A stretch of 64,000 nucleotides of DNA, taken from the NCBI GenBank assembly GCA_030431635.1, contig JAUIIL010000003.1, positions 310,001-374,000 of the forward strand, in the 5' to 3' direction. Positions 213-49,100 of the stretch are shown here, one piece after another. The position numbers and the translations under genes are program-made. Each line of letters starts with the position of its first letter. The first letter of the stretch is position 1. This DNA comes from Bacteriovoracia bacterium. Lineage in GTDB: Bacteria; Bdellovibrionota; Bacteriovoracia; Bacteriovoracales; Bacteriovoracaceae. The notes below the pieces were generated by a model that saw nothing but the letters and a program-made list of their open reading frames with translations, was not told where the DNA came from and searched no databases.

Positions 213-1301
213 ATGGCTGAAGATACAGACACAGGCGAAAAAACCGAAGCTCCCTCCCAATATCGGATTGAGGAGTTTCGAAAGAAAGGACAGGTTGCTT
301 CTTCTAAAGAAGTGAATAGTCTCATTATCCTTGCTGCTACAATTATGACAATAACAATCTTCTCTGTTTATGCTTATGAAGTTTTAACTGATTTTATTTA
401 CTGGTTAGTTAATCTACAGGCCAAAGAAGCTTATAAACCAGAGTTCTACCAGTTATTAATTAAAAATATGGCCTTAACAGGAATAAAGTGCTCTGCTCCT
501 GTTTTTATTTCGACAATACTTATCTCTTTTCTTTCTCAAGTTTCTCAAATTGGATTTATTTATGCTCCAGATGTCCTTCAATTAAAATTTGATCGGATAA
601 ATCCTATTAATGGTTTTCAAAGGCTTTTTTCTACAAGGGCTTTAGTGGAAGCTTTGAAAGGGTTATTTAAGTTTTCAATTATTTTATCAATCGTCTATTT
701 TACCATTAAAGATAACATGGGCTCTTTCACAGGATTTCTCCACGTGGAGCTCCCTGCTTCAATGGCCTTTGGTAAAATGCTAGCACTTAAGCTCGCTTAC
801 TCAATCATTATCGGCTTAGTTGTTGTTGCGATTGGTGACTTTGCTTGGGAAAAGTACTCTTATATGCAAAAACTTAAAATGACGAAACAACAAGTTAAGG
901 AAGAGCAAAAAGATAAAGATGGTAACCCTGAAATTAAACAAAAGATTCGCTCTATTCAAAGAGAAATGAGTAGAAAAAGAATGATGAATGACGTGCCAAA
1001 GGCTGATGCTATTATCACTAACCCAACTCACTTAAGTGTGGCGGTTAAATATGACCCAGCAACTATGATAGCCCCAGAAGTAATTGCCAAAGGTGCAGAC
1101 CAAGTTGCTCTCAAAATAAGAGAAATTGCAAAAGAAAACGATATTCTCATTGTTGAGAACGTTCCACTGGCCAGGACTCTTTATAAAACAGTCAAGATTG
1201 GAGAAGGTGTCCCTCGCAGTCTTTATAAAGCAGTCGCTGAAGTGTTGGCCTTTGTTTATAAAAAAAGAAAAAAACGTCAAAATCCAGGATTGAGAGGATA
1301 A
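213..1301 (+). CDS. flhB: Flagellar type III export switch protein FlhB
   Basis: 362 residues, the usual FlhB length. The start is ATG with GGAG upstream (198-201). The N-terminus (DTGEKTEAPSQYRIEEFRKK) is typical: FlhB proteins open with a TEKPT..R..AR.KG-like segment. Four hydrophobic segments occupy roughly residues 35-215, followed by a charged linker and the cytoplasmic domain. The self-cleavage motif NPTH is intact at residues 270-273, so the substrate-specificity switch from hook to filament export should work. It sits in the inner membrane with FliR and FlhA. flhA starts four bases after the stop, so the two are co-transcribed. Confidence 0.97.
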   Translation: MAEDTDTGEKTEAPSQYRIEEFRKKGQVASSKEVNSLIILAATIMTITIFSVYAYEVLTDFIYWLVNLQAKEAYKPEFYQLLIKNMALTGIKCSAPVFISTILISFLSQVSQIGFIYAPDVLQLKFDRINPINGFQRLFSTRALVEALKGLFKFSIILSIVYFTIKDNMGSFTGFLHVELPASMAFGKMLALKLAYSIIIGLVVVAIGDFAWEKYSYMQKLKMTKQQVKEEQKDKDGNPEIKQKIRSIQREMSRKRMMNDVPKADAIITNPTHLSVAVKYDPATMIAPEVIAKGADQVALKIREIAKENDILIVENVPLARTLYKTVKIGEGVPRSLYKAVAEVLAFVYKKRKKRQNPGLRG

Positions 1302-1305
1302 CTAA

Positions 1306-3390
1306 ATGAATAGCTTTAATCAATTTTTTGAAAGATTTAAAACGCTGACGAAGAATTCGGATTTGACGATAGCAATTGGTCTCGTTCTTATTCTATCGGT
1401 TATGATTATTCCTATAAGTCCTGTGTTTTTGGACTTACTAATTGCTCTCTCTCTCGCTTTCTCATTGGTTGTTCTTCTTTTAAGTGTTTATGCAAATAAA
1501 CCTTTGGATTTCTCAACTTTTCCATCAGTTCTTCTGGTTTCGACTCTTTTTAGGCTTTCTCTGAACGTGGCCTCAACTAAAAATATTTTGATTAGAGGGG
1601 GAGCAGAAGGAATTGGAGCTGCTGGTGATATTATTCGCTCTTTCGGAGACTATGTTGTTGGTGGGAATTTTGCTGTTGGTATTATCATCTTTATCATTCT
1701 TGTTATCATTAACTTTATTGTTATCACTAAAGGTGCTGGAAGGGTTGCTGAAGTTGCAGCAAGGTTTACATTAGATGCAATGCCAGGGAAACAAATGGCC
1801 ATCGATGCAGACTTAAATGCAGGTCTTATTAATGAAACCCAGGCAAAGGATCGAAGGCAAGAAGTTGCCGCCGAAGCTGATTTTTACGGGTCTATGGACG
1901 GTGCTTCGAAGTTTGTTAGAGGAGATGCCATTGCAGGTATTCTTATTACAGCTATCAATATCATAGGTGGAATCATTATTGGAATGGTTCAAAATGGAAT
2001 GAGCTTTTCAGTCGCGACTGAAACATTCACTCTACTTACAGTTGGTGATGGACTTGTGGCCCAAATTCCAGCTCTTATTGTTTCAACTGCTGCTGGTATG
2101 ATTGCTACCAGAAATACAAATGACAATTCACTAGGAGAGCAACTTTCAACCCAGTTTAGTATTCATCCTAAAGCCCTTTATATTGTTTCAGGTATTTTAA
2201 TTCTCTTCTCTTTTATTCCTAATCTTCCTATGCTTCCTTTCTTTTTCATAGGAGCAACGGTTGGTTTTATTGGTTTTAGAATTGAGAAAAACAACATTCA
2301 AGCAGAAGAGAAAAATAGACTAAAAGAACTAGAAAACAAAAAATCTACTGGTGAAAACCTTGAGGATCTTCTCTCTCTTGAATTGGTTGAGCTTGAAGTT
2401 GGATATGGACTTGTTAATATTGTGGATGCTGAACAAAATGGTGATTTATTAGAGAGAATAAGCCACATTCGAAAACAATTTGCAGTCGATTGGGGAGTGA
2501 TTATTCCTTCCATTAGAATCAAAGATAACTTGGAGTTAAAACCAGGCGGATACTCACTAAAGATAAAAGGAATAGAAGTGGCCGCAGGGGATCTGATGTC
2601 TGATCACCTTCTTGCAATGGATCCTGGAACTGTTATTGAACCGATTGAAGGAATAGAAACAGTTGAACCTGTTTTTGGATTACCAGCTGTTTGGATTGGT
2701 GAAGATTTAAGAGATGAAGCTCAATATAATGGTTATACAGTGGTGGACCTTTCAACTGTTATCGCGACTCACATAACTGAAATTTTGAAAGCAAACCTTC
2801 ATGAGCTTTTTGGTCGTCAGGAATTGGTAAGAGTTCTTGATAACTTTAAAGAAGATTATCCAAAAATTGTAAGCGATCTCATTCCAGAAATTCTTCCTCT
2901 TGGAACTATTCTAAAAGTGCTTCAAAACTTACTTAGAGAAGGAGTTTCAGTAAGAGACTTAAGAACTATTTTAGAATCTCTCGCTGAAAATGGAGATGTT
3001 ACAAAAGATAGTTTACACTTAACAGAGTTGGCCAGACAGTCCTTATATAGAACAATTACAGAGTCTATTAAAAACGATCAAGGAGATGTTCCACTTTTCA
3101 CTCTCGATCGTAATGTTGAAGAAGCTGTTGCGAATGCTATCGTTGAATCCGACTCTGGGCAGCAGCTTGCTCTTGATACGAAAATTACCCAATCAATTTT
3201 ATCGAGTTTGAATGAAAAAATAGAAGAAGCCACAAATATGGGCGAAAAAATGATAATTTTGTGTTCACCAATCATCAGAAGGCACTTTAAGCATTTGACA
3301 GAAAAATTTATTCCGAATTTGGTTGTGGTAAGTCATAATGAATTAAGCCCTGATGCGAACATAAAGTCACTAGGGACGGTGAGGTTGTAG
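1306..3390 (+). CDS. flhA: Flagellar type III export gate protein FlhA
   Basis: 694 residues, normal for FlhA. About the first 325 residues carry roughly eight hydrophobic segments and the highly conserved cytoplasmic loop with TKGAGRVAEVAARFTLDAMP and KQMAIDADLNAGLI, the family hallmark. The rest is the soluble cytoplasmic domain that docks chaperone-substrate complexes. FlhA couples proton flow to export and forms the nonameric ring above the gate. The gene starts four bases after flhB and is followed after one base by flhF. No damage is seen, so flagellar export is probably functional. Confidence 0.97.
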   Translation: MNSFNQFFERFKTLTKNSDLTIAIGLVLILSVMIIPISPVFLDLLIALSLAFSLVVLLLSVYANKPLDFSTFPSVLLVSTLFRLSLNVASTKNILIRGGAEGIGAAGDIIRSFGDYVVGGNFAVGIIIFIILVIINFIVITKGAGRVAEVAARFTLDAMPGKQMAIDADLNAGLINETQAKDRRQEVAAEADFYGSMDGASKFVRGDAIAGILITAINIIGGIIIGMVQNGMSFSVATETFTLLTVGDGLVAQIPALIVSTAAGMIATRNTNDNSLGEQLSTQFSIHPKALYIVSGILILFSFIPNLPMLPFFFIGATVGFIGFRIEKNNIQAEEKNRLKELENKKSTGENLEDLLSLELVELEVGYGLVNIVDAEQNGDLLERISHIRKQFAVDWGVIIPSIRIKDNLELKPGGYSLKIKGIEVAAGDLMSDHLLAMDPGTVIEPIEGIETVEPVFGLPAVWIGEDLRDEAQYNGYTVVDLSTVIATHITEILKANLHELFGRQELVRVLDNFKEDYPKIVSDLIPEILPLGTILKVLQNLLREGVSVRDLRTILESLAENGDVTKDSLHLTELARQSLYRTITESIKNDQGDVPLFTLDRNVEEAVANAIVESDSGQQLALDTKITQSILSSLNEKIEEATNMGEKMIILCSPIIRRHFKHLTEKFIPNLVVVSHNELSPDANIKSLGTVRL

Positions 3391-3391
3391 A

Positions 3392-4768
3392 ATGCATGTC
3401 AGGAAATTTGAAGGAGATTCGTTAGAAGAGGTTATCAAGCAAGTTAAAAAAGAACTTGGCCCTGATGCTATTATTCTTAAAACGAAAACAAACAAGGGAA
3501 TTGGTGGAGCTTTTCGCAAAAATAGAGTTGAAATTACAGCTGCTATTTCTGAGAGTAGTTACATTAAGAAAGCAAAAGTTGATAGAGTTTTACCAGATGA
3601 AGTGAAAGAGACTTTCTATCAAGCGCCTTCATCAGAAATTAATAAAACGATTCAATCCTACTCTTCTCCCACATATGGAGCGATGGGATTAAATAAAAAT
3701 GTTCAAATGAAAACAAATAAACTTAAAGATAAAGTGGTAAGTACGGCCAAATCTTTTACTTCAAGTTTAGATGACTTCTTAACTCCTCAACCAAAATCTG
3801 AACAACCTTTAGAAAACAGAGTTGAACTGCATGAATTCATTTCAGATATCCAGCCAGAGGAAGTTGAGGTTCGAAGACAAGAAAAAACATTAGAAATGGA
3901 TTATTCGAATCATTTAAAATCTCAAGAAGAAAAGATTAAAGCATTAGAAGAAAAACTAATGAATTTAATGCAAGATGTAGTCGTTAGTTCAGAAAGAGAG
4001 AAAGGTCCTCACGGAATTAGCGAATTAAAAACAACTCTTAAAACACTAGATTTAAACAATAGAATTATTACGAAGTTAATAAAAAAGATTAATGCCTCTG
4101 TAAGTTATAAAGACCAAGATGATAGTGATGTTGTTTTTGATGTGGCCTTAAGAGAGCTCGATGAAATAATTAATACTAAGCAAGCAATGTTCTCGCAGGT
4201 TGTTGGAAGGTCGTCGATAACTGTTTTTCTCTCAGAGGGCGCGAGTGGACAAAGTTCAGCAGTGAGAAAACTAAGTTCTATTAGAGAAGGCTCTAAGGTT
4301 ATAAAAATTGTAAGAGAAAAAACCAAGAGAACAAAAACAGACAAACTACTTGGAATTGACATCGTTGAAGTAACATCTATTGCTGAAGTAGTAACAGAGT
4401 GCCGAAAAGAAGAGTTATCGGAGAAAGCTCTTTTTATTGATGTGAATCCAAACCTTCTAAGCAATGAAAGTATTAAAGATCTAGTAGAGCATTTAAAAAG
4501 AAATTTTTCTTCTGTTGAAGTTCTTTTAAATATCTCTGCCATTCATTCTGAAATTTACAATAGAAAAAATATTTCTAAGTATTCTCATTTGATTGATGGG
4601 ATTATAATAAATCATATAGACAAGTGCCTTAACTTTGGAGCACTTGTTAATGTGCATGAAGAGTTTGGTCATATCCCCTTAGTCTTTTATGGTACGGGGC
4701 GGGTTATACCGGAAGATATTGAAGCGGCTACATCAGAAAGATTAATAGCTTCACTTTTTAGAATTTAG
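3392..4768 (+). CDS. flhF: FlhF-like flagellar SRP-GTPase homologue with lost nucleotide-binding motifs
   Basis: 458 residues. The N-terminus (MHVRKFEGDSLEEVIKQVKKELGPDAIILKT) is the standard FlhF B-domain start, and the ending IPEDIEAATSERLIASLF resembles the conserved P(E)D...A family end. Position between flhA and flhG also fits. In the G domain, however, the P-loop is replaced by G283-A-S-G-Q-S-S-A290 (the invariant GKT of GxxGxGKT becomes SSA). The DTAGR motif becomes DVNPN, and TKLD becomes NHID. FlhF normally sets the site and number of polar flagella through its GTP-bound dimer. This copy keeps length and frame but probably cannot bind or hydrolyse GTP normally, so it may act as a scaffold. 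The identity is firm from context and both ends; the loss of GTPase activity is inferred from the motifs. Confidence 0.88.
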   Translation: MHVRKFEGDSLEEVIKQVKKELGPDAIILKTKTNKGIGGAFRKNRVEITAAISESSYIKKAKVDRVLPDEVKETFYQAPSSEINKTIQSYSSPTYGAMGLNKNVQMKTNKLKDKVVSTAKSFTSSLDDFLTPQPKSEQPLENRVELHEFISDIQPEEVEVRRQEKTLEMDYSNHLKSQEEKIKALEEKLMNLMQDVVVSSEREKGPHGISELKTTLKTLDLNNRIITKLIKKINASVSYKDQDDSDVVFDVALRELDEIINTKQAMFSQVVGRSSITVFLSEGASGQSSAVRKLSSIREGSKVIKIVREKTKRTKTDKLLGIDIVEVTSIAEVVTECRKEELSEKALFIDVNPNLLSNESIKDLVEHLKRNFSSVEVLLNISAIHSEIYNRKNISKYSHLIDGIIINHIDKCLNFGALVNVHEEFGHIPLVFYGTGRVIPEDIEAATSERLIASLFRI

Positions 4769-4798: not shown

Positions 4799-5689
4799 AT
4801 GTCGGTTGAGAGTGTCAGCGAATGGCTACATTCATTTAGTTCTGAAGCAAGTAAATTTCAAAGTCTTAAAAAACGTTACAAAACGTCAAAAGCAGTCACT
4901 GTATCGATTGCCAGCGGAAAGGGGGGAGTAGGTAAAACCTCAGTCTCTGTCAAACTTGCAAAAGAGTTAGCATCACTTGGACATAAAGTTCTGCTTCTTG
5001 ATTGTGATTTTAACCTTTCGAACACATCAATAAAGCTTAACATTCCCTTAAGTGATAATTTTTTTGATTTGATTTCTGCTCGGAAAACATTCGAAGAGTG
5101 TATTGTTAGAATGGGAAACCTTGATATTCTTCCATCGGCCAACGGAAATCTTGATCTTTTTAATGAAGGTCTTCAAATGTATGAAATTATGGTTGATATT
5201 ATTTATGGCCATGAAAAAGATTATGATTATATCTTGCTTGATTCTCCTGCAGGAATTTCCAAGGATAGTGTTAATCTTAACGCTTATTGTGATCACCGAT
5301 TGCTAATAGTAACGCCTGATAGGTCATCTATCACTGATGCCTATTCTTTAATGAAAGTTTTATCAAAAAGCTATGGTATTAACGAAAACCATCTTTTGGT
5401 AAATATGGTGAATAACCAAGGACAGTATTTAAGAGTTATTAAAACTTTAAGTGAAACTGCTGAAAATTTCTTAAACTCGCGAACAAATATTATTGGTGGA
5501 ATTAAAAAATACGACTGTTCAACAGACTCATTTGATAAGTTTTTTATTCAAATGGAAAACTCTGCCGCTCACAAAGACTTCTCTAAACTAACTAAAAAGT
5601 TTACCGAAAAAATTTGTGGGCGCTCTGTAAATGGGGTTAGTTCACATCAACTTGTGGACAATAGGGGCGTCGAACTCGAAGTTCATTAA
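4799..5689 (+). CDS. flhG: MinD-like ATPase FlhG (FleN/YlxH), flagellar number regulator
   Basis: 296 residues; ATG preceded by GAAGGAGA. The deviant Walker A motif of the ParA/MinD family is intact (SGKGGVGKTS, about residues 39-48), as is a Walker B-like segment (YILLDSPAGIS). FlhG limits flagellar number and stimulates FlhF through an N-terminal helix containing DQAxxLR. Here that region reads SSEASKFQSLKKR, with no clear DQA, which fits the degraded FlhF upstream. The C-terminus is polar and lacks an obvious MinD-type membrane-targeting helix, though this cannot be excluded by eye. It lies 30 bases after flhF and 18 before fliA, in the same operon. Confidence 0.93.
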   Translation: MSVESVSEWLHSFSSEASKFQSLKKRYKTSKAVTVSIASGKGGVGKTSVSVKLAKELASLGHKVLLLDCDFNLSNTSIKLNIPLSDNFFDLISARKTFEECIVRMGNLDILPSANGNLDLFNEGLQMYEIMVDIIYGHEKDYDYILLDSPAGISKDSVNLNAYCDHRLLIVTPDRSSITDAYSLMKVLSKSYGINENHLLVNMVNNQGQYLRVIKTLSETAENFLNSRTNIIGGIKKYDCSTDSFDKFFIQMENSAAHKDFSKLTKKFTEKICGRSVNGVSSHQLVDNRGVELEVH

Positions 5690-5707: not shown

Positions 5708-6493
5708 ATGTCGTCTCTCACAGCTAAGCTAAGAAATTTAAAAGATTACAAAACAGCAATTGATGCAAAAACTAAAGATGAAATCATCGTAGAGTATGCA
5801 CCGTTGATTAAGTATATTGCTATGAAAATAGCTTCGAGACTTCCAGCAAATATTGAACTAGATGATTTGATTTCATGTGGTGTTATAGGGCTCATGGATG
5901 CAATTGATAAGTTTGATCCAACGAGAGACAATAAATTTAAGACATATGCTGAATTTAGAATAAGAGGGTCGATCCTTGATGAATTAAGAGCACAAGACTG
6001 GGTACCTCGTTCTGTTAGAGAAAAAGCGAAAATGATTGAAAGAGCTTACTCTAAATTAGAGGGAGAGCTTGGAAGACCTGCAACTGATGAAGAAATGTGT
6101 GCTGAGCTGAATCTTTCTCAAGAAGAATATTTTTCACTATTAAATAAAGCAAAATCCGTTTCTTTATTAAACATTGATGACTCCTCTAGTTTTAACAGAG
6201 GGGACAAGAAACTTTTAATGGGTCTTTTAGAGCACAGAAGATCATCTAATCCATTTGCTGCCGTTAACTACAAAAGAGCACAAGAAATTATAAAGAATGG
6301 AATTAAATCCTTACCAGAAAAACAAAGATTAGTTCTCTCTCTTTATTATTATGAAGATCTTAATCTTAAAGAAATTGGTCAGGTACTTGATGTAACAGAG
6401 TCTAGAGTTTCACAACTTCATACACAAGCCATTCTTAAATTACGAGTAAGACTAAAATCGAGTTTCGAGTCAATCGAAGATATTGCAAGTTAG
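5708..6493 (+). CDS. fliA: Flagellar sigma factor sigma-28 (FliA)
   Basis: 261 residues. Region 2 is clear (LPANIELDDLISCGVIGLMD and FKTYAEFRIRGSILDELRAQ, roughly residues 42-98). It is followed by the WVPRSVREKA segment typical of the FliA/WhiG class, a region 3, and a region 4 helix-turn-helix near the end (LKEIGQVLDVTESRVSQLHT). It directs RNA polymerase to late flagellar and chemotaxis promoters. It is the last gene of the flagellar operon here and is followed by a hairpin. An anti-sigma factor FlgM is not seen in the window. Confidence 0.96.
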   Translation: MSSLTAKLRNLKDYKTAIDAKTKDEIIVEYAPLIKYIAMKIASRLPANIELDDLISCGVIGLMDAIDKFDPTRDNKFKTYAEFRIRGSILDELRAQDWVPRSVREKAKMIERAYSKLEGELGRPATDEEMCAELNLSQEEYFSLLNKAKSVSLLNIDDSSSFNRGDKKLLMGLLEHRRSSNPFAAVNYKRAQEIIKNGIKSLPEKQRLVLSLYYYEDLNLKEIGQVLDVTESRVSQLHTQAILKLRVRLKSSFESIEDIAS

Positions 6494-6566: not shown

Positions 6567-6627
6567 TAATAATAAAGTACTAAAAACTTTTATCCATTAA
6601 GGATAAGAGCTTGAAAACAGGATGTTT

Positions 6628-8979
6628 ATGGGTCGAAAACTTTTCAGATTATTTCCTTATTATTATCAATTCGTTCTCGCTTTTTTGATCAGTCTTTGTT
6701 TTGGAGCTTTGGTTTTCTTGTGGGGAAATGGTTATTTAGATGGAAGCCACATGACTTCAGTCTATGAGGCCACAACAATTATTAAAACATTAAAAGAAGA
6801 TAAAACTTTAAACTATATAAACGATTCAATTACAAGCGGAGATATCAGTAAGGCCAGAAGTCGTTTCAATTTTTTTGAAGATAAAGTGAAAAAGGTAAAT
6901 AGAATTGTAAGAATGGATTCCTATATGCCAGTTGAGCAAAATGGGAAAAAACTCAAAGAATCTTTTTCTAGGTTACAAACGATATCTAATGTAAATGATG
7001 CCTACAGAGTTTTAGAAGAAAAAGCCATGAATTTTTCTAGCTATGTGAAGGCCAATAAATGGAGAACATTGACTAGAATGAGTTCAATTGTTCAAATGAG
7101 GTTAACTAAAAATAACGGCGAGTTTAATGGTCTTGGAAAAACAATGTCCCAAGTTAATAAGGACATTGCTTCAATGGAGAATATTACCATGTCCTCCATT
7201 CTTGCTTCTAATGAGAAATCAGAAATCATGAATCGTTTAAAATCTCTCAAGGTAGAAATAGAGATTTTAAATAATTTTTCAAATGAGAGAGCCGGTTTTT
7301 TACAAAACTTTAAAAGATATAAAAATAGCTTTGAGTCATGGGTAACAGAACTAGGCCCCGAGCTCTCATTGCAAAAAATTGAAGCCGATAGATATGGCCA
7401 TTATTTTCTCTTCCTCTTAGTTGGACTAATGCTCATGAGTGGTATTTTAATGGCGGCAGGATATATTTTTCAAAAAAAATACGAAGCTGAAATAGGTGCA
7501 CAAATAGAGGAAAAAGTACTCAAAATCAATGAGAATAATCTCATTCGGACAGATGAACTTTCTTCTGATTTTTCATTAGAATTTAAGCAAAAGTTTGAGC
7601 AAATGAAAAAATATATCCATAAGAGAATGATGTTTGGAAGTATTTTTCAAGACTCACTACCATTTCCTTCAGTTCTCTTAGATAGTAATTTGAAAGTGAC
7701 TTGGGCCAACCAATACTTTAAAGAAATGTGGAAACTCAATAGTGATGATATTCAGTTAGATAAGATCAGTTGGGACTTTTTGGCCAAGTCAACTAATCTA
7801 GGACAAAACGATCCTGTTATAGAAGCTCATAAAAATGGAATTGCTGGAATTTATCAAATTCAAGTGAAGACTCCTGAGCAAAAGAAGTTTGGCCCTTATG
7901 AAATGTATGTGAGTCCCATCGAATATAACGGAGATATTTCTATTCAAGTTTATCTCTACTCACTGGAATCACTACAGGATACGATAGAGTCACAAGGCCG
8001 ATCAATTATAGGGCCAATTACAAGAACAATGGATGCGCTTCTTGCAGGAAGGTTTGATAGTGCTTTTAAAGAGCAGATTAAATCAGATTACGATGTGGCC
8101 GATATCAATGATATTTATGAGAAAATTTGTAAACATAATGAACACGCCACTCTTCAAAAAGAAGGACTTCTAAGTGAAATAGATCGCTTAGAAGATGAAT
8201 CCGCTGACATGAAAAAATCTCTTGATGATGTCATGGGACTTAATAAAGCCGCGATTGAAGCAAACTTGAAAGTTGTTAAAGATTTGAAAATTGTACGAGA
8301 TAAATTCATCGAACTTGCGGGTGTTGTTGATGAGTATAAAGAATTGAATGCTAATCTGCGAGATTCGCTTCACCAAAGTATTCAAGATTATCATATTAGT
8401 GTGAGAAAGAATGAAGGTCTTTTTGGAAGCTTTTCGGATGCTTTAAGTGCAATTCCATCGGTAGAGAAGTTCAAGGATGAAATAAAAGTAATTAAAAATG
8501 AAATGGTTTCAATCAAAAATAAAATCTCTCAGTCTATTGGAAAAGTTGTGGACTCTTCTAAGTTAGATATCAATAGTGAATTAAAATTTAAACAAGCAGG
8601 AGCAATTGAAAGAGTGAATGCAGACCTTGCTGCCTTAAATGATGTGATCGCTAGCATTGATAAGAAGATGGTTTTTCTTGATGTTCAATTTTCAAAAACT
8701 CAAATGATTTTCAAAGAACATAAGAGAAGAATTAGTGAGAACAAGGTTGAGAATGAAGGAATTAGACAAAAAGATTTACTCGAGAGCTTTAAAGGGCAAA
8801 ATACCTACTTAAGTGATCTTGAGACTCGCTCTCAAAGAATTGAAGATGTTGTCATTGATAAGTTAAAATCAGTTTATTCTGGTTATAAGGCCAATACTAA
8901 AGTTGCTTATACCGTTAATAAGCTCATTCAAGACAAGGATGGCTTTGTGGAAAAATCGGCTACAGAAACAGAAGTTTAA
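6628..8979 (+). CDS. Inner-membrane PAS and coiled-coil protein, chemoreceptor-like but without a signalling tip
   Basis: About 783 residues from the second ATG. AGGA sits five bases before this ATG, whereas the ATG at 6622 overlaps that AGGA and has no ribosome site of its own. There is a membrane segment near residues 12-32, a helical, presumably periplasmic domain of about 225 residues, and a second membrane segment around residues 260-282. A PAS-like domain follows (FPSVLLDSNLKVTWANQYFKEMW, near 345-430), then a long coiled coil to the end. This layout resembles methyl-accepting chemotaxis proteins, but the conserved hairpin tip (EANLLALNAAIEAARAG type) and a HAMP domain were not found. 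No histidine kinase or GGDEF motif is visible either. Placement after fliA suggests a motility-linked sensory or structural role, which is inference. Confidence 0.7.
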   Translation: MGRKLFRLFPYYYQFVLAFLISLCFGALVFLWGNGYLDGSHMTSVYEATTIIKTLKEDKTLNYINDSITSGDISKARSRFNFFEDKVKKVNRIVRMDSYMPVEQNGKKLKESFSRLQTISNVNDAYRVLEEKAMNFSSYVKANKWRTLTRMSSIVQMRLTKNNGEFNGLGKTMSQVNKDIASMENITMSSILASNEKSEIMNRLKSLKVEIEILNNFSNERAGFLQNFKRYKNSFESWVTELGPELSLQKIEADRYGHYFLFLLVGLMLMSGILMAAGYIFQKKYEAEIGAQIEEKVLKINENNLIRTDELSSDFSLEFKQKFEQMKKYIHKRMMFGSIFQDSLPFPSVLLDSNLKVTWANQYFKEMWKLNSDDIQLDKISWDFLAKSTNLGQNDPVIEAHKNGIAGIYQIQVKTPEQKKFGPYEMYVSPIEYNGDISIQVYLYSLESLQDTIESQGRSIIGPITRTMDALLAGRFDSAFKEQIKSDYDVADINDIYEKICKHNEHATLQKEGLLSEIDRLEDESADMKKSLDDVMGLNKAAIEANLKVVKDLKIVRDKFIELAGVVDEYKELNANLRDSLHQSIQDYHISVRKNEGLFGSFSDALSAIPSVEKFKDEIKVIKNEMVSIKNKISQSIGKVVDSSKLDINSELKFKQAGAIERVNADLAALNDVIASIDKKMVFLDVQFSKTQMIFKEHKRRISENKVENEGIRQKDLLESFKGQNTYLSDLETRSQRIEDVVIDKLKSVYSGYKANTKVAYTVNKLIQDKDGFVEKSATETEV

Positions 8980-12727: not shown

Positions 12728-15442
12728 TTGAAGTTTAGCTCTTATTTATTAACATTAACTTTGCTCTCAGGGCTTTTATTTTTAAGCTCCTGTGGGGATG
12801 TAAGTGAAGGACCAGGTGCTGAAACAGCTATTCAAGCTGTTTTAACTTGTGATCTTAATGATGAGCCTAGTTTTGATCTTATTTTTGAAGAAGAGATTAC
12901 TTCAACTTGGGATTGTCTTCAGGAGTCGATGGATCTGTTCATTGATAAAGTAAGAACTGATTATGAAGGGTATTTGTCTTTAGATTTATTAAAAGATTTT
13001 ATCAACGAAGAAAAGCCAGATCTTATTGATGATATTCCAGCAATTGAGCAGTTTTTTAAACTTTCTAATCTTTTTGTTGGAGTTCCGGATTTTGTTCTTG
13101 CGAAGTGGCCAGGGATCAATAACCCGAATGATTTGAAAGAACATCATAAATTTATCTCTAAAGCAGATATCTCTCGTATTATTAGTTTTCTCAAAGTTTT
13201 CAATAAAAATGTGGTGAAAATTCGTCGTGAGTTTGAAAATGAAGATGAAGTCAGTTCTGAAGTCCATTACCGTTTGAAAGGAAGGATTCAAAATTACTCT
13301 AATGAAATCGCAGATGAATTACAGAAGGTCTACTCCCGTCAAACGAGTATTGAATATAAGCTTGATCTTCATGAACTGATGGATACTTTCAAAGATGAAG
13401 AGGGAGAAAACGCAGAGGATAATAATAGAGAAGATATTGAAACGATTAAATCACTTACTTTTCTTAAAACGCTCTTTTTGGGAGGAGATAAGACAATTAT
13501 TGGTAACTCTGAGTTAGGCCATATTGTCGATAACTTATCCACCTATATAACTGTTTTTTATGATTTTATTAGACTTAAGGAAATAAGGTTTAATGACAAG
13601 GTAAAAAAGTTTCAGTTGTTTGAGCAAGATCTTAACGAACTTCAAGCTCTTTTCTATAGAGGTCCTACGAGTGATATCACTTTGTTTGATGTTGATGATG
13701 TTTTAAAAGCAGCATCACATTTCCAGGATGATCTGGGAGGGATTGATCTGAGTTTTCACACTGACGCTGTTTTAAATATCATGGATATGATCTTTGGGGT
13801 AAGTTATAAAAATATTACTGAAGAAGATAGGGCACAAAGAAGAGAGAGTATAAGAAAACGGCAAAGAGCGATTTCGATGAGAAAACTGACCGTTCTTATC
13901 GATCATTTTCACGACGTTTTTAATATGGGGATTGTTTTTCATGATCTCTACTCTCAGTATTCCGATCTTCTAAGTAGCGCGGAGAGAATTTCACTCGAGC
14001 CAAGAGATCATAAGCCTGAGACAGACTACGAAAAGCGCTTCTTTCCTGAGTTTATGAGGATTGCCTCGAACTACCGCTTTTATCAAGACGGTAAATCTCC
14101 TTACTATATCCCTGGTTATGTTAGAAACCCGAATGCTCTTTTTACCATTGGCGTTTTGGAATATGCTTTCAAAGAAGTTTTCCGCTTTATTGAAGAGAAA
14201 TGGCCATGTGACATGGAGAAATTTAAAACGGATAAATGTAAAATAGCCGACAGTGATAATACCGATAAGGAAGACTTTAACTCCACTCTAACTTTAAGAC
14301 AGGTTGAAAGACTTATTTTTGAGCTTCACTCTCTACTGGTTGAAATGAATATTGTGATTCCTAAACGAGAAGGAACTTCTGCTAACAACGCGACCTTAAT
14401 GACAGATCTTTTTCAGTTTCAATCTGGTACCTCTGCAGATGGTTCTGGAAAAGTTGAAGTCCATGAAGCAACAGAATTCGCTGTCGGTGTTTTCACCGCT
14501 CTTGATATGGGGGATATTGTTCTTGAGAAAATGAAAGAGGCTTGTGATGGACAGTGGGTCTATGCTGATCAGATGTGTCCAAAGAAAGATGAAATAGGAA
14601 GAATCATTGATGATGAGGATTGTGAAATACAAGTTTCTGTTTCTTGCTTTCGGCGAAACTTTTTTGATGTGCTTTTTTCAGAGTGGGAAGATGAAGATGG
14701 AAAAAGAAGAAACTTTAAAGATAACCTGCCACTACTGCACGATTACGTTAAAAAAGAACTTACTCCTTATCAAAGTCAGGAGTTTCTTATTCAAACGGAA
14801 ATATTTGCCAGAACTTGTTATCCTATAGATGCTTCAGCAGAAGAAGATGATACCAACCCTCGCCATCCTTTATTAAATGAGTATTTAGAAGCAGGAAACG
14901 ATCTCCCTGATGTTCCACTTGGTGATGGTGATATGCTCTCGATTTTGGGAGGATTACTTAATATTGAGTCAACTCTACTGCGCTTTGATACGGATTTCAG
15001 AGTGGATGAAAACGGAGCAAGGTACGGAAACGGTAATAATAGAATGGATGCCAATGAAGTAGAAAGGGCCTATGAAACAGTTTATGCTCCAGCGATTAAA
15101 GCATTGGTTAAAGATAGTGCAGGGAAGTTTGTATCTAAAATTCTTTCAAAGACTATTTTTCAATACCTGATTAAATATGGAAAAATTCCAAGCACTGGAC
15201 AGCTATTGAAGTTTCTCGTTAGTACCAACAAAAAAGTTGCGGCTAAGAGAGATACTATTGCTCAAATTTTAAAAACAATCTCAGAAACAGCTGGAAAGCT
15301 TTGTGAAATTGAAACTGATGAATCTTGTAGCGATCCTGATCCTAAAAACTGGAATCGTGATAAATGTGAATGTAAACTAAGGCACTATACAGAAGAAGCA
15401 AGATTAAAATATTGCTATCCAGCTATTTTTGATGGAATATAA
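12728..15442 (+). CDS. Large lipoprotein of unknown function
   Basis: 904 residues from a TTG start with AAAGAGG upstream. The signal peptide ends in a lipobox (FLSSC, Cys near residue 22), so this is a lipid-anchored envelope protein. The sequence is acidic and mostly helical. Two imperfect EF-hand-like loops are visible, SADGSGKVEVHE (about residue 577) and YGNGNNRMDANE (about residue 767), so calcium binding is possible. Cysteines cluster at the C-terminus (CEIETDESCSDPDP and CECKLRHY). No known enzyme motif is seen. It follows the outer-membrane protein gene in an apparent two-gene operon, and prfB begins six bases after its stop. Confidence 0.75.
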   Translation: MKFSSYLLTLTLLSGLLFLSSCGDVSEGPGAETAIQAVLTCDLNDEPSFDLIFEEEITSTWDCLQESMDLFIDKVRTDYEGYLSLDLLKDFINEEKPDLIDDIPAIEQFFKLSNLFVGVPDFVLAKWPGINNPNDLKEHHKFISKADISRIISFLKVFNKNVVKIRREFENEDEVSSEVHYRLKGRIQNYSNEIADELQKVYSRQTSIEYKLDLHELMDTFKDEEGENAEDNNREDIETIKSLTFLKTLFLGGDKTIIGNSELGHIVDNLSTYITVFYDFIRLKEIRFNDKVKKFQLFEQDLNELQALFYRGPTSDITLFDVDDVLKAASHFQDDLGGIDLSFHTDAVLNIMDMIFGVSYKNITEEDRAQRRESIRKRQRAISMRKLTVLIDHFHDVFNMGIVFHDLYSQYSDLLSSAERISLEPRDHKPETDYEKRFFPEFMRIASNYRFYQDGKSPYYIPGYVRNPNALFTIGVLEYAFKEVFRFIEEKWPCDMEKFKTDKCKIADSDNTDKEDFNSTLTLRQVERLIFELHSLLVEMNIVIPKREGTSANNATLMTDLFQFQSGTSADGSGKVEVHEATEFAVGVFTALDMGDIVLEKMKEACDGQWVYADQMCPKKDEIGRIIDDEDCEIQVSVSCFRRNFFDVLFSEWEDEDGKRRNFKDNLPLLHDYVKKELTPYQSQEFLIQTEIFARTCYPIDASAEEDDTNPRHPLLNEYLEAGNDLPDVPLGDGDMLSILGGLLNIESTLLRFDTDFRVDENGARYGNGNNRMDANEVERAYETVYAPAIKALVKDSAGKFVSKILSKTIFQYLIKYGKIPSTGQLLKFLVSTNKKVAAKRDTIAQILKTISETAGKLCEIETDESCSDPDPKNWNRDKCECKLRHYTEEARLKYCYPAIFDGI

Positions 15443-41434: not shown

Positions 41435-41549
41435 TTTTTCTGGTCGTTTTCCCTAACTCCCTCTCCCTTCCTAACTGACCAGAAAAAAGAAGTAAGACCC
41501 AAACCCCTCCATGAAAAAAAGGCCCTCTTAATGAGGGCTTTTTTCATGG
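41435..41549 (+). ncRNA. Candidate 3'-UTR-derived small RNA with C-rich loop
   Basis: Four bases after the stop codon of the small exported protein, TTTTTCTGGTC (41435-41445) pairs with GACCAGAAAAA (41477-41487). The 31-base loop is all pyrimidine-rich with several TCCC blocks (CTCCCTCTCCCTTCC). A linker with ACCCCTCC (about 41503-41510) and a strong terminator follow. C-rich single-stranded motifs in small RNAs often pair with Shine-Dalgarno sequences. This is a structural prediction only. Confidence 0.4.
41509..41549. terminator. Bidirectional intrinsic terminator
   Basis: CCATGAAAAAA-GGCCCTC on the left pairs with GAGGGC-TTTTTTCATGG on the right around a short TTAAT loop. A runs before and T runs after the G/C core let it stop transcription from both sides. 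The stem includes the stop codon of the convergent HExxH-protein gene. Confidence 0.9.
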
Positions 41550-43742
41550 GTCGAAACAATGTCCGTTTTCACAAACAATATAATCTTCATAGATGCTGGC
41601 CCCAAATTTCCAAACGCTTTTAAGATACTTGAGATAAAATCTTAAAGCTCCGAAGTGAAGCTCTTGAGCATAATGATAGGCCTCATGAGAAAGGAGATCG
41701 ACTGAATTAAAACGAGTGCTCTCTTGGATACTAACATTACCTGCGACTTCAAAGCTTACATTATTAATGACTTTTGAATATAAAGAATCCTTTCTCCAGA
41801 TAACTCTGTCAAAATGCTCTTTATTCATGACAAGAAGTTCACTGGAATAAGCACGCTCAGATATTGCTGGGTTATGAGTGCTTTCTGCATATTGATTAAG
41901 GTTTTCCTGAGTCACTAAATCTCTAGGGTCATACCTAAAACCTAAGATGAGAATTTTAACACCTGCCAAAGCAGCACCATAAAGAACTCCCTCCTTAATC
42001 CCTTTGAGAGCATCTCCATTATCAAGGACAGCAATAACCAATCCTCTTACTGAAGAATGAAAGGAAGTTTGAGCTATTTCGATGAGAGCATTAGCAAAAT
42101 TTTGATCCATTCCTTTAACTGTGTAATGAGAAAAGCCCACAGGTAGTTGAAGAAGCAAAGCTTGATAGACACCTCCCGTGATAATTCCAAGATCTATCGG
42201 GCGTCCAGTCATGAGTGCCTGGAAACCTCCAGAGACTCCTCCAACAAAAAGAGAGTGAGCAAGTTGTCCTGATAAATATCCAGCGGCCAATGCCGAGCCC
42301 ATGAGAATTCTTTTAGGAGATTTTTTTATTTCATTAATCCATTGGCTTCCGTAATGAAGGGAATTCAAAGAATCAAATACAAGAGAGTAGGTAACAACAC
42401 CTCCAAAAGGGCCAATGAGTTGAGAAACAAGAAGAGAGCTAAGAGAACTTAAAATTGTTTGATAAGTAAAAGTTCTTTTTAAAAACTGAGTTGTATTAAA
42501 TACAATCTTTCCTAGTCCTGTTGTATTGAGTTTCTTGGCGTTTCCTTGTGAGGTAACAAAAAGATCTTCTCTAAACCAAGGAGAGTCAGGGAAATATTTC
42601 AAGAGTGCCGGAGTTAAGCGAATAACTTCATCTTTAGTGGGAAGTTTCCCTTCAAATGAAAGAGTACTTTTTTGAGAAAAGAGGTCTTTATTTTTGCCCA
42701 ACCATAACCTTGCTCTTTGAATAATAGCAGGGTTCTTTTGGTTTAAAAGGTAGGCGAGTTGAAAATCTCGGTAGGACTGCAAAACTTTTTCAGTATGAAT
42801 GAAAATTTGAGTTGGAGTGAGAAAAAGTGCTTGAATGCCAGGGAAGATTTCTTCTTTGTGAACAACGACTTCTGGATAGCGCTTTATTAAATAAAGAAAA
42901 AAAGCGTTTTTATTACTTGCTCGGTAAATGCTTCTGTAGAGAGGGATTACCTGCTGTCGGATTTTTTGACGCTCTTTCTTAAAAGGTTGAGTTGAGTACT
43001 GAGGAAAAAGAGAAATTCCAATAGGCCGACGCGGATTGTATCTCATTTCAAAAAGATTTTGAGTTTGGTATTTTTTTGAGTCTTTGGTTTCAAGTGAAAG
43101 GAGGTTTCTTGCAAAAAGGCTTTGATAGGAGAGAGTTATTTTCTTTATTTCCCTAAGGCGGATTCGTTTCATTTTTTGAACAGTGAGCCGCTTTGTGAGA
43201 TAGGATGGCAAATACTTTTTTTTCATGAGATAGCACAGTAAGTTTTCTCCATCTGGATGGCGCACTATTTTGTTAAATTTTTCAATTAATCTTAAGCGTC
43301 TAAGTCTAGATAAGCGTCCTTTTTTAAGCAAGGAAAGAGAGATAGATTCTGCTTGAAAGTCTGAATTGTAATTTTGGGCAACAAGAAGACTTATTTCTTT
43401 CGGGTAGGGAGTTTTTAGTTTTTTGATAAAACGGTATAGACTTTCAAAGTTTTCAATTGGTTTTTCTTGAAGGATGTTTTTAAGACGATTGAGATTCTGG
43501 AGGTCATGATGTTTGAAAAGAATATCAGAAACCTGGTCGATCAGATCATCGACCAATAACTCAAGTCTTTTGTGAGTGTAAGGATGAAGAGCAGAGTTTT
43601 GAGAGTCAATGTCCTCTAAAGCTCCACTTCGAGAACTCTGTAGGAGAAATTCGATATAAGAGTCGTTGTCTAAGTGAAATTGAGGCGAAGAAAAAGCCCA
43701 TAAGATTTTGGTAAAAAATAAAACAATAAAAAAAACTCTCAC
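41544..43742 (-). CDS. Exported protein with C-terminal HExxH motif, putative metallopeptidase
   Basis: 732 residues from a GTG start with GGGAG upstream. Signal peptide near residues 1-17. The first 400 residues are basic and helical with no recognised domain. A glycine/alanine-rich hydrophobic zone follows (about 425-600; for example ALAAGYLSGQLAHSLFVGG and GVLYGAALAGVKILILGF). Near the C-terminus SHEAYHYAQ gives H686-E-A-Y-H690, the zinc-binding motif of many metallopeptidases, with Glu719 (IYEDY) as a possible third ligand. Other reading: a structural protein with a chance HExxH. Divergent from the exported-protein genes that begin at 43912. Confidence 0.6.
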   Translation of the reverse strand: MRVFFIVLFFTKILWAFSSPQFHLDNDSYIEFLLQSSRSGALEDIDSQNSALHPYTHKRLELLVDDLIDQVSDILFKHHDLQNLNRLKNILQEKPIENFESLYRFIKKLKTPYPKEISLLVAQNYNSDFQAESISLSLLKKGRLSRLRRLRLIEKFNKIVRHPDGENLLCYLMKKKYLPSYLTKRLTVQKMKRIRLREIKKITLSYQSLFARNLLSLETKDSKKYQTQNLFEMRYNPRRPIGISLFPQYSTQPFKKERQKIRQQVIPLYRSIYRASNKNAFFLYLIKRYPEVVVHKEEIFPGIQALFLTPTQIFIHTEKVLQSYRDFQLAYLLNQKNPAIIQRARLWLGKNKDLFSQKSTLSFEGKLPTKDEVIRLTPALLKYFPDSPWFREDLFVTSQGNAKKLNTTGLGKIVFNTTQFLKRTFTYQTILSSLSSLLVSQLIGPFGGVVTYSLVFDSLNSLHYGSQWINEIKKSPKRILMGSALAAGYLSGQLAHSLFVGGVSGGFQALMTGRPIDLGIITGGVYQALLLQLPVGFSHYTVKGMDQNFANALIEIAQTSFHSSVRGLVIAVLDNGDALKGIKEGVLYGAALAGVKILILGFRYDPRDLVTQENLNQYAESTHNPAISERAYSSELLVMNKEHFDRVIWRKDSLYSKVINNVSFEVAGNVSIQESTRFNSVDLLSHEAYHYAQELHFGALRFYLKYLKSVWKFGASIYEDYIVCENGHCFDP

Positions 43743-46093: not shown

Positions 46094-46185
46094 CAAAACA
46101 GAGAATTAGTTTGCCGCGTTAGCACTTCTTATATGCTTTCGCCAAAGATTTTGACGGTTTAGAGTACGCACGTTAATTGACGAAG

Positions 46186-49100
46186 ATGAAAAAAATTTAC
46201 GTCTTCTTATCTCTGTTTTTGCTCTTATTTCATTCTTTTTCTTCTGCTTGGGCCACCGATAAAATTGTCTATAAAAGTCTAGAAGAGCTTCTAAGTGGAC
46301 TTTCACAAAAAGAAACAGAGGAGCTGGATGGTGTATTCAATGAAAATAAGATTATTGATCTCGAGCAAAGTGGCAAGAGTGAGCTTTCAAGCTGGGTAGA
46401 AGAACTCAATTTTAGATTAAGTGAGTCTCTATCGAAGCTGGGTAAACACTATGCTCAATATCAAATTTACTTTATCGACTCTTCTGAGCCACAAGCCTTT
46501 CTTTATAAGTACGAGCCTAAAGGTCTTGAGTTTTATCGTTGTCATGTTTTTATATCAACAGGACTCATTAGTAAGTTTTCAGAAAAAATAGTGAGTAAAG
46601 GACTGTCTCTTGAAGAAGAAACTCAAGATATTTTGAAAGGCTTGCAAGGGATTTTGGCCAGAGAGTTTGTTGAACCTAAGCAAGGTGAACTTATTAAGAA
46701 AGACTGGGATTTCTCAGGAGATAGCGCAGAAAGACAAACTCAAGCAGATGAATTAACAGCAGATTTAATGACTGTAAATCTGTTGAAAGAAGCAGAACTA
46801 AGTACGGACTCTCTTCTGTATTTTCTACAGAACTTAGAAAGAGAGAAAGATGATCAAAGTAATGCTTTTCTTGACGGTATAGTAAGTGCTTTTTCTCAAA
46901 GTCCAGAACTAGAGATGAGAATAAATGCGTTAAGGGCCAGGTTAACTCACTTACGCTTGAATGAAGGGCAGAAGAAAGAAAAGCAAATAGCTATCAATCT
47001 TTCACAAATCTCAGAAGAGCTTTCCTCATTATCAGATCAATCTAGAAATCAACTTCTTTATGAAAAACTTCCAGAGAAAAGTGACATTGAGAGTATGCTG
47101 GTTAAACTTGAACAAGGACTAGATTTTTACAACAGCCAAGATAGCCAGGGAGCTAAATGGGATTATGAAAGGGATATCCTTTTTCTTCATGAAGCACTAG
47201 AGAAGCTCTATGAAAAACAACTAACCTCTACTGATAAAGAGTATTATTTTAAAAGTACTTTAAAGCTCATTAGTTCTCCTGATGAGTGGTATTTAAATGC
47301 TTTTAATGATTCACAGTGGATGAAAGGTAACGATGGGCACGTTGATATATCTTCTTATAAGATGAGGAATTATCAAGAAGGTTTAAGGAAATCTGTTTTT
47401 TTTCAAAAGAATAATTTTTTTGAAGAGTTTGCATCATTATCTCAAGAAGAGCTTACAAATATACTGAAGAAAAAAAACTTTCATGAACTCTTAATCTTTT
47501 TTCCTGTTCGTGACCTTGAGGCCTTAATACCTGAATATTTAGTTTTTATTGACTCGCTGGAAGGAGAGAAAAAGGTAGAGCAATTATTAAGACTCTGGAG
47601 TAGCGTAGTTAAAGCAAATTTTCATATCCAAACGGAAGTTAAAATTTTAAAGAAAGTTCTTGATGCTTTTCAGGAAGAGGGTAATCGCGAGCACTTCATC
47701 CCCTATATGTATAACCTTGAGAGAACTTTTCAGGAGAATATATTTCTTAATGAGCGCTTTGTTCGTTACCGTCCATCTCATCCAGAGGAGAGTAAAGAAC
47801 TGCTAAAGCTCTATTTTGAGTTTTTTAACCTTGGAATGAGAGAAGGTGAGCGTTTTACGAAAGCGATTGGACTAGATCTTTTCTTAAAGATTCTTTATTG
47901 GAACCTTTATCCCAAGAAACTTCTCTCATCCTATAAAAATAATGGAGCTTTCAATCCTCTTTTAGTCTTGGATTATTTTAAAGAACCTGCTGAAAGTGAA
48001 AATTGGGATAACTTCTTTGATGAGAATTTTCAAACTTTAAAAATGTTGTCTGACGAAGGTGGCTCTTCTACATTGAGCTTTGGGAACTTCTTCTTTTTTT
48101 TACAATACAATAATGTTTTTGAAGGAAAGGATTATCAGAAAGCTTTTTATTCATTCATTAAAGGGTTGCTTGTAAAGTACATTGGCAAAGATGGTCTGAA
48201 GTTAGAAGACTGGCACTATTATATTAAATTTTTGAATGACCAGCAGATGACAGAAGTTGGCTTTGTGGATGCGTTACTGATTGATATCGCTCAAAAACAA
48301 CCCAAAGAGGTTAAAAAGTTTATTTTAAGTGGAAAGTTTTTAGCTTCAATGAAAGAGGCAGCTTTCGGTTCATCTTCACTGACTTCCTTACATGTAGAGT
48401 TACTTGCCTCTTTAAAAAAGAATGGTGTTATTACAAGCCAAGAAGCTCTGGTGGCGATAGATAAGCAAATGAGCTTCGTTTCTGAGTGGGGAGGGAACTC
48501 CTTTTTTAACTCTATTGTAGATAATAGGTTCGGTCGGAGTGCCTCAATAGAGCTTTGGCGCTTTTTTTATGACAGAGATGATTATAGTGAGGGTTTTTTT
48601 GAATTTCTTTTTAAAAATTATGCTTTAAGTGAAAAGGCCAAAAAACTTATAAAAGAGAAACGTATTGAAACTTTGGGCAATGAGTTTGTTGTTATCATGA
48701 GTTCTCTGGGGATTGAGTACCATCCTATTTACACTCAGAGATTGCAATACCTTTCTGGGCCTTTAATACGTGAGTTTAAAAAGAGTGTTGGTATCGAAAG
48801 TTTAGATATTCATTCTTTAGATTATAAGAATAGGTTTAAAGATAACTTTGTCCAGGCCAAGGATTATTTAAAAAAAATATTTAACCCAGATGGTATTTCT
48901 ATACCAATCCAATTTCAGTCTTACTTCAATTACACGGCTTTAGATCCTTTGGCTGATGACTTCTTAGAGTTAATTCCAGAGGGACTAGAATATGAACAGT
49001 ATCTTGAAATTTTTAAAACTGTAACAGCGAAGAGGGCCAACCAGTATTCTGATAAATTTTTTCAAAAATTTCTCTATAAGAAAGTTCTGTTAGAAAACCA

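Follow-up and report, generated by a model that had tools for sequence, protein, structure and literature searches.

FlhF with degenerate GTPase motifs is conserved throughout the class Bacteriovoracia and is probably a scaffold, not a GTP switch

The window, as we call the whole 64,000-nucleotide stretch of Bacteriovoracia DNA analysed here, carries a group of flagellar genes in the order flhB-flhA-flhF-flhG-fliA, followed by a large conserved ORF:

213..1301, + strand: flhB
1306..3390, + strand: flhA
3392..4768, + strand: flhF (read as a pseudo-FlhF), 458 aa, with a B domain, a linker and an SRP-type NG domain whose GTPase motifs are degenerate
3392..3547, + strand: residues 1-52, the portion of the B domain that resembles a FliG-interaction domain (profile match to 9en1_A, a solved FlhF N-terminal domain, E 8e-4)
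4799..5689, + strand: flhG, a MinD-type ATPase with an intact P-loop (SGKGGVGKTS)
5708..6493, + strand: fliA, sigma-28 type
6622..8979, + strand: conserved ORF of 785 aa with weak PAS matches only and no good Pfam match

The flhF gene lies in the orthologous position between flhA and flhG; the initial annotation had noted that the operon position is preserved. The same surroundings are found in relatives: of 80 flhF loci, 79 contain FlhA and 77 FlhG. Residues 1-263 of the protein match the FlhF model TIGR03499, albeit with 68.8 bits, below the curated cut-off of 174.15, and the PF00448 match is restricted to the last 113 residues (344-456). PADLOC gave no match for either FlhF or the 785-aa ORF. 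The source genome (3.3 Mb in 19 contigs, 100% complete) encodes a single FlhF; its two other SRP-type GTPases are canonical and were read as Ffh and FtsY. A second, intact flhF as the active copy, envisaged in the initial annotation, is ruled out, since the genome search found none. Across contigs C17, C2, C9, C16, C14 and C3, the same genome contains eight Flagellin_N matches over the cut-off, together with three for FliG_C, of which one lies in a frame of 350 aa and two in short frames. Elsewhere in the window, a 1641-aa protein (46177-51102, + strand) has as its sole Pfam match an ABC1 atypical-kinase-like stretch at residues 1302-1516; two ORFs of 904 aa (12728-15442, + strand) and 732 aa (41544-43742, - strand) have no Pfam match at 1e-3; and a MutS-type protein (61845-63974, - strand) comprises domains III, IV and V only, a MutS2-like layout.

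The SRP-type NG fold of the window FlhF is predicted to be intact. The structural model (mean pLDDT 78.7, with values below 50 in the G5 loop, residues 435-446) aligns with GTP-bound B. subtilis FlhF (2px3) at Z 20.7 and 2.9 Å over 236 residues, and with the GDP form at Z 20.3; the top-ranked Foldseek entry is an FlhF. An independent profile search likewise returned B. subtilis FlhF (2px0, NG domain) as the best solved relative, with the motif columns in register. Haemagglutinin rows in this search cover coiled-coil and linker columns only and were treated as composition artefacts. At the N-terminus, the elements E2-8, H11-21, E27-33 and E46-52 were modelled. Judged by position, fold and N-terminal domain, the protein is an FlhF; judged by its motifs, it is not a GTPase. 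The motif regions of the NG domain are as follows:

4232..4258, + strand: former P-loop (G1), residues 281-289, SEGASGQSS, with Lys replaced by Gln287
4310..4381, + strand: shortened region where the I-box/G2 (D..K.xA..Q) is expected, about residues 307-330
4439..4453, + strand: former G3, residues 350-354, DVNPN, with Asp kept and Gly lost
4544..4561, + strand: class-specific conserved patch H385..Y389 N390
4610..4627, + strand: former G4, residues 407-412, NHIDKC, with Asp410 kept, Lys lost and Cys412 newly conserved
4688..4717, + strand: G5/closing loop YGTGRVIPED, residues 433-442, kept

In the alignment, the consensus GxxGxGK[ST] falls on S281-E-G-A284-S-G286-Q287-S288, so that the first glycine has become serine, the second alanine and the lysine glutamine; in the profile search these columns stand opposite STGAGKTTT of B. 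subtilis FlhF. G3 reads D350-V-N-P-N and G4 reads N407-H-I-D410. The motif letters quoted in the initial annotation are all there, but its P-loop register was two residues off. Its claim that all visible GTPase motifs are lost holds for the P-loop lysine, the G3 glycine and the G4 lysine, and also for the I-box/G2, whose disappearance it had overlooked; the G1-G3 spacing is reduced as well. The claim goes too far for the Mg-side Ser/Thr288, for D350 and D410, and for the GTG...PxD loop of G5, which are still present. The alignment and the open reading frame rule out both a frame problem and an intact P-loop at another place in the protein.

The motif loss is a trait of the whole class and not a quirk of a single organism. 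In the sampled genomes, the GTDB family of the source organism is coextensive with its order and its class, at 129 genomes from 48 genera, and FlhF relatives were found in 119 of them. An alignment-based contig scan, unlike one with a single-protein query, also recovered relatives, Halobacteriovorax marinus and strains of Bacteriovorax among those with names. The P-loop lysine is glutamine in all 118 class FlhF loci read, from 117 genomes (90/90 aligned and 28/28 further), and an alignment of relatives, as proposed in the initial annotation, thus shows the loss to be conserved. Two FlhF-positive genomes were left out, one because its coordinates were not listed (G037) and one because the fragment lacked the P-loop (G099). 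The 90 aligned loci come from 89 genomes, G025 (9% contamination) contributing two, and one row (L089) stops at a contig edge before G4. The comparison set from other families of the phylum comprised first 30 and then 50 sequences; being the 30 best FlhF scores plus 20 chosen for family coverage, it leans towards canonical FlhF. With this bias, the P-loop lysine is kept in 50/50 outside proteins, a contrast with the invariant class glutamine that exceeds chance, the I-box occurs in 46/50 as against 0/90 in the class, the G3 glycine in 46/50 as against 2/90, and the G4 lysine in 30/50 as against 2/90; no class protein contains GK[ST] (0/90). Of the kept sites, Ser/Thr288 is conserved in 86/90, Asp350 in 89/90, Asp410 in 89/90 and G436 in 89/90. 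The TIGR03499 cut-off is passed in none of the 129 family genomes, compared with 130 of the 368 phylum genomes, a figure in which the family is included. In a tree of FlhA (quick search, midpoint rooting), the 16 class rows all fall into a single branch, fully supported by SH-aLRT, so that a single origin of the loss suffices.

Lost catalytic motifs together with an FlhF model score under the cut-off might suggest a decaying, non-functional gene. In that case, relaxed selection and frequent frameshifts would be expected, but none of this was seen: median dN/dS of the NG domain is 0.050 over 20 unsaturated pairs, indicating strong purifying selection; Q287 is invariant although the relatives are mostly only 30-48% identical to the window FlhF; the operon position is conserved; and a single match (G112) among the FlhF matches listed has an internal stop. 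We therefore find a decaying gene barely credible, and decay confined to one lineage is ruled out by the class-wide distribution, the invariant glutamine and the low dN/dS.

Beside the losses, several residues have become fixed in the class. C412 is present in 86/90 class proteins and 3/50 outside, N390 in 88/90 and 1/50, Y389 in 86/90 and 1/50, and H385 in 78/90 and 0/50; H408 is likewise class-specific. Among all columns of the family, C412 ranks first by weighted relative entropy and Q287 eighth. Such exact fixation exceeds what would be expected from mere loss, and may hint that the old pocket has come to accommodate a different ligand, such as a metal or a cyclic dinucleotide, and is lined by Gln287 together with the class-specific His, Tyr, Asn and Cys. 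The same residues could, however, form a protein-binding surface, and we consider a new ligand improbable.

The main rival to a nucleotide-free protein is one with weak or altered nucleotide binding: FlhF would no longer hydrolyse GTP but, despite its remodelled P-loop, would still bind a guanine nucleotide (GDP or GMP, perhaps) through the Mg-side Ser/Thr, the two Asp and the G5 loop, which fixes a single conformation. In P-loop NTPases, replacement of the lysine by glutamine, with loss of the flanking glycines, the I-box and the G4 lysine, normally abolishes phosphate and base binding, and class FlhF combines the Lys to Gln change with the loss of both flanking glycines, the I-box and the G4 lysine. 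Yet the Ser/Thr, the two Asp and the Gly listed above are nearly always kept, and mutants of Vibrio FlhF give this pattern some weight, since T306A, D439A and E440K are null while K305, G299 and K437 mutants are partial (PMC6092412). The residues matching T306 and D439 are kept in the class and those lost include the positions of the partial mutants, which argues that some nucleotide binding may remain. The site of the third null mutation, E440K, corresponds to E411 and is also lost (Glu in just 2/90 class proteins). On balance, nucleotide binding without hydrolysis appears unlikely, though it deserves to be taken seriously.

The partner protein FlhG has changed as well. Its own P-loop is intact in all 77 class FlhG obtained from 80 named loci, but none of them has the DQA of the DQAxxLR motif (0/77), in place of which the window FlhG has another segment:

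4805..4834, + strand: N-terminal EWL-motif helix of FlhG, residues 3-12, in place of DQAxxLR (helix predicted at low confidence)

The class consensus here is SEWLxSxN (the "EWLxS" segment), and mean pLDDT of the predicted helix is 59 over residues 1-10. WL is found in 76/77 class FlhG, although the invariance of W9 and L10 in the FlhG alignment arises by construction, the rows having been selected on that motif. According to a review, the glutamine of DQAxxLR is a co-catalytic element that stimulates FlhF (PMC12826062), and its absence from class FlhG therefore fits an FlhF that does not hydrolyse GTP. A simple coupling, in which DQAxxLR was lost because FlhF lost its GTPase, is nevertheless weakened by the outside loci. 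Among the 50, FlhG with a recognisable P-loop was obtained from 32 (in the rest, the flank was too short or the frames were broken); DQA is missing in 25 of these 32, whose FlhF keeps the P-loop lysine, so that losing DQA is no specific mark of the putative pseudo-GTPase. WL was found in 0/32.

Presence of FlhF and presence of FlhA agree in 125 of the 129 family genomes (116 with both, 9 with neither). One of the four exceptions, with FlhA only, is a fragmented assembly (G008); the other three, with FlhF only (G065, G067 and G068), belong to a single genus, g27. FlhA, FliG_C and Flagellin_N, the three families searched, were undetected in 4/4 g27 genomes, whereas control family genomes were positive. 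Three of the four, 94-99% complete, retain an FlhF with the Gln P-loop. These proteins are shorter (about 350-380 aa) and keep the S..S.GQ P-loop, H385, Y389, N390 and both Asp, with C412 in 2/3; dN/dS for the closest pair is 0.05, but dS is 1.9 and saturated. In all three loci the order is ORF173-flhF-fliA-ORF640, and no match for flhG, flhA or flhB was found within 14.5 kb around each flhF. ORF640 is related to the window ORF at 6622-8979, a homologue of which follows fliA in 66 of the 69 class loci with enough flank. ORF173, of about 170 aa, lies directly upstream of flhF (L279:6026-6547, L280:5920-6441 and L281:8236-8742) and is missing from the other 80 class loci. By eye it is perhaps FliM-like, but neither Pfam nor the solved structures yielded a convincing match.

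The persistence of FlhF without detectable flagellar genes suggests that flagellum placement may not be its sole role. It could even be that the main retained role is non-flagellar, with FlhF belonging to a regulatory module with sigma-28 (FliA) and the conserved ORF. The g27 loci without flhG and the regular company of the ORF behind fliA are in favour of such a module. However, flhF tracks flhA across the class, the shorter g27 proteins may have specialised after flagellum loss, and the apparent absence of the flagellum in g27 was judged from three families only. A mainly non-flagellar FlhF strikes us as rather improbable.

Taken together, the GTP-handling parts of FlhF are lost, the altered protein is strictly conserved, and one lineage has kept it after an apparent loss of the flagellum. 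This suggests that, in a large and mostly predatory group, FlhF probably acts as a scaffold and not as a switch operated by GTP. Pseudo-GTPases retain the GTPase fold, carry inactivating substitutions and serve as scaffolds or sensors. In the window FlhF the fold appears from the model to be kept, and, as read from the alignments, the inactivating substitutions are conserved in the class under purifying selection. The reading that we favour, and hold to be reasonably likely, is that class FlhF is a pseudo-GTPase that works as a nucleotide-free, GTP-independent tether. The proposal of the initial annotation, that the organism may use a GTP-independent FlhF, would accordingly survive as the best reading of the sequences, with the difference that the property belongs to the class and not to this organism in particular. 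A tether needs shape and no hydrolysis; since the class keeps both the N-terminal domain and the fold, a constitutive tether seems to be the most economical explanation.

How such a tether might operate can be sketched from other bacteria. In Shewanella, FlhF contacts FliG through its N-terminal domain and HubP through its NG domain (PMC11236974), and a P. aeruginosa paper cites the FlhF-HubP contact as GTP-independent (PMC12713375). By analogy, the N-terminal domain of class FlhF would hold FliG, and a partner with a polar or regulatory role would be bound by the NG surface. For TIGR03504, the FimV/HubP C-terminal domain (a 44-position model), the best match in the source genome has 16.9 bits, against a cut-off of 30.65. 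On/off switching by GTP and the FlhG glutamine would shift to the ATP cycle of FlhG itself, whose new EWL helix would bind the remodelled pocket face of FlhF; alternatively, a constitutive tether might be controlled through its abundance. It is tempting to combine these elements into a fuller scheme, in which FlhF, the third SRP-type GTPase, would have become, across the class, a scaffold that is nucleotide-free or differently liganded and is switched by the ATP cycle of FlhG through its EWL helix. Besides its flagellar task, this scaffold would work together with sigma-28 and the conserved ORF. This second, non-flagellar task would then account for the survival of FlhF in a lineage without detectable flagella. 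We put this scheme forward tentatively, as possible but doubtful.

The tether reading has to be confronted with experiments on FlhF from other organisms. Polar placement is reported to need GTP binding in Vibrio (PMC6092412) and in P. aeruginosa (PMC12713375), which argues that a GTP-free FlhF should place no flagellum. H. marinus BE01, of a genus within the class, has a single polar flagellum (PMC5760749), and catalytically dead R334A FlhF of Vibrio still gives normal flagella (PMC6092412). Studies of mutants differ as to what is essential, be it the binding of GTP, its hydrolysis or neither of the two (PMC12713375, PMC6092412). FlhF is usually treated as a GTP-operated switch for the site and number of flagella. 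The natural loss of the P-loop lysine, the I-box and the G4 lysine, together with a single polar flagellum in a member genus, makes the matter directly testable: one can ask which region of FlhF is responsible for flagellar placement, and what takes over the switching where GTP plays no part in it. A further function is indicated by g27, with FlhF kept and no detectable flagellar genes. Searches of the open-access full-text literature turned up neither a GTPase-dead FlhF nor any account of FlhF from Bacteriovoracia, and they yielded no SRP-type pseudo-GTPase.

With FlhF of B. subtilis (2px0, 2px3), Shewanella, Vibrio and Pseudomonas, class FlhF shares the B domain, the NG fold and the flhA-flhF-flhG neighbourhood; unlike B. 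subtilis FlhF, which has the P-loop lysine, and Vibrio FlhF, which has K305, it is without the GTP-binding motifs. Closer at hand is a Bdellovibrio-like branch of 23 FlhF (among them L141, L148 and L229-L242), of the same phylum and with the same operon, whose FlhG also lacks DQAxxLR. This branch is separate in the FlhA tree, and its FlhF keeps the P-loop lysine in 23/23 and the I-box in 21/23, but the G4 lysine in 4/23 only. Within the phylum FlhF that were read, full motif loss was seen in the class of the window only, the Bdellovibrio-like branch being at most half-way. Of the 368 phylum genomes, 180 have no FlhF match at E 1e-28, and among these the reading for degenerate FlhF covered the family of the source organism. 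Two members of the Bdellovibrio-like branch, from two other families, L229 (GPASQGKT) and L230 (GTNAQGKT), have lost the second P-loop glycine and are possible independent half-way cases. From these alignments, base recognition by FlhF may have been relaxed more than once in the phylum. As for the partner, class FlhG is, like FlhG of other bacteria, a MinD-type ATPase encoded beside flhF with an intact P-loop, and differs from them in having EWLxS where they have DQAxxLR.
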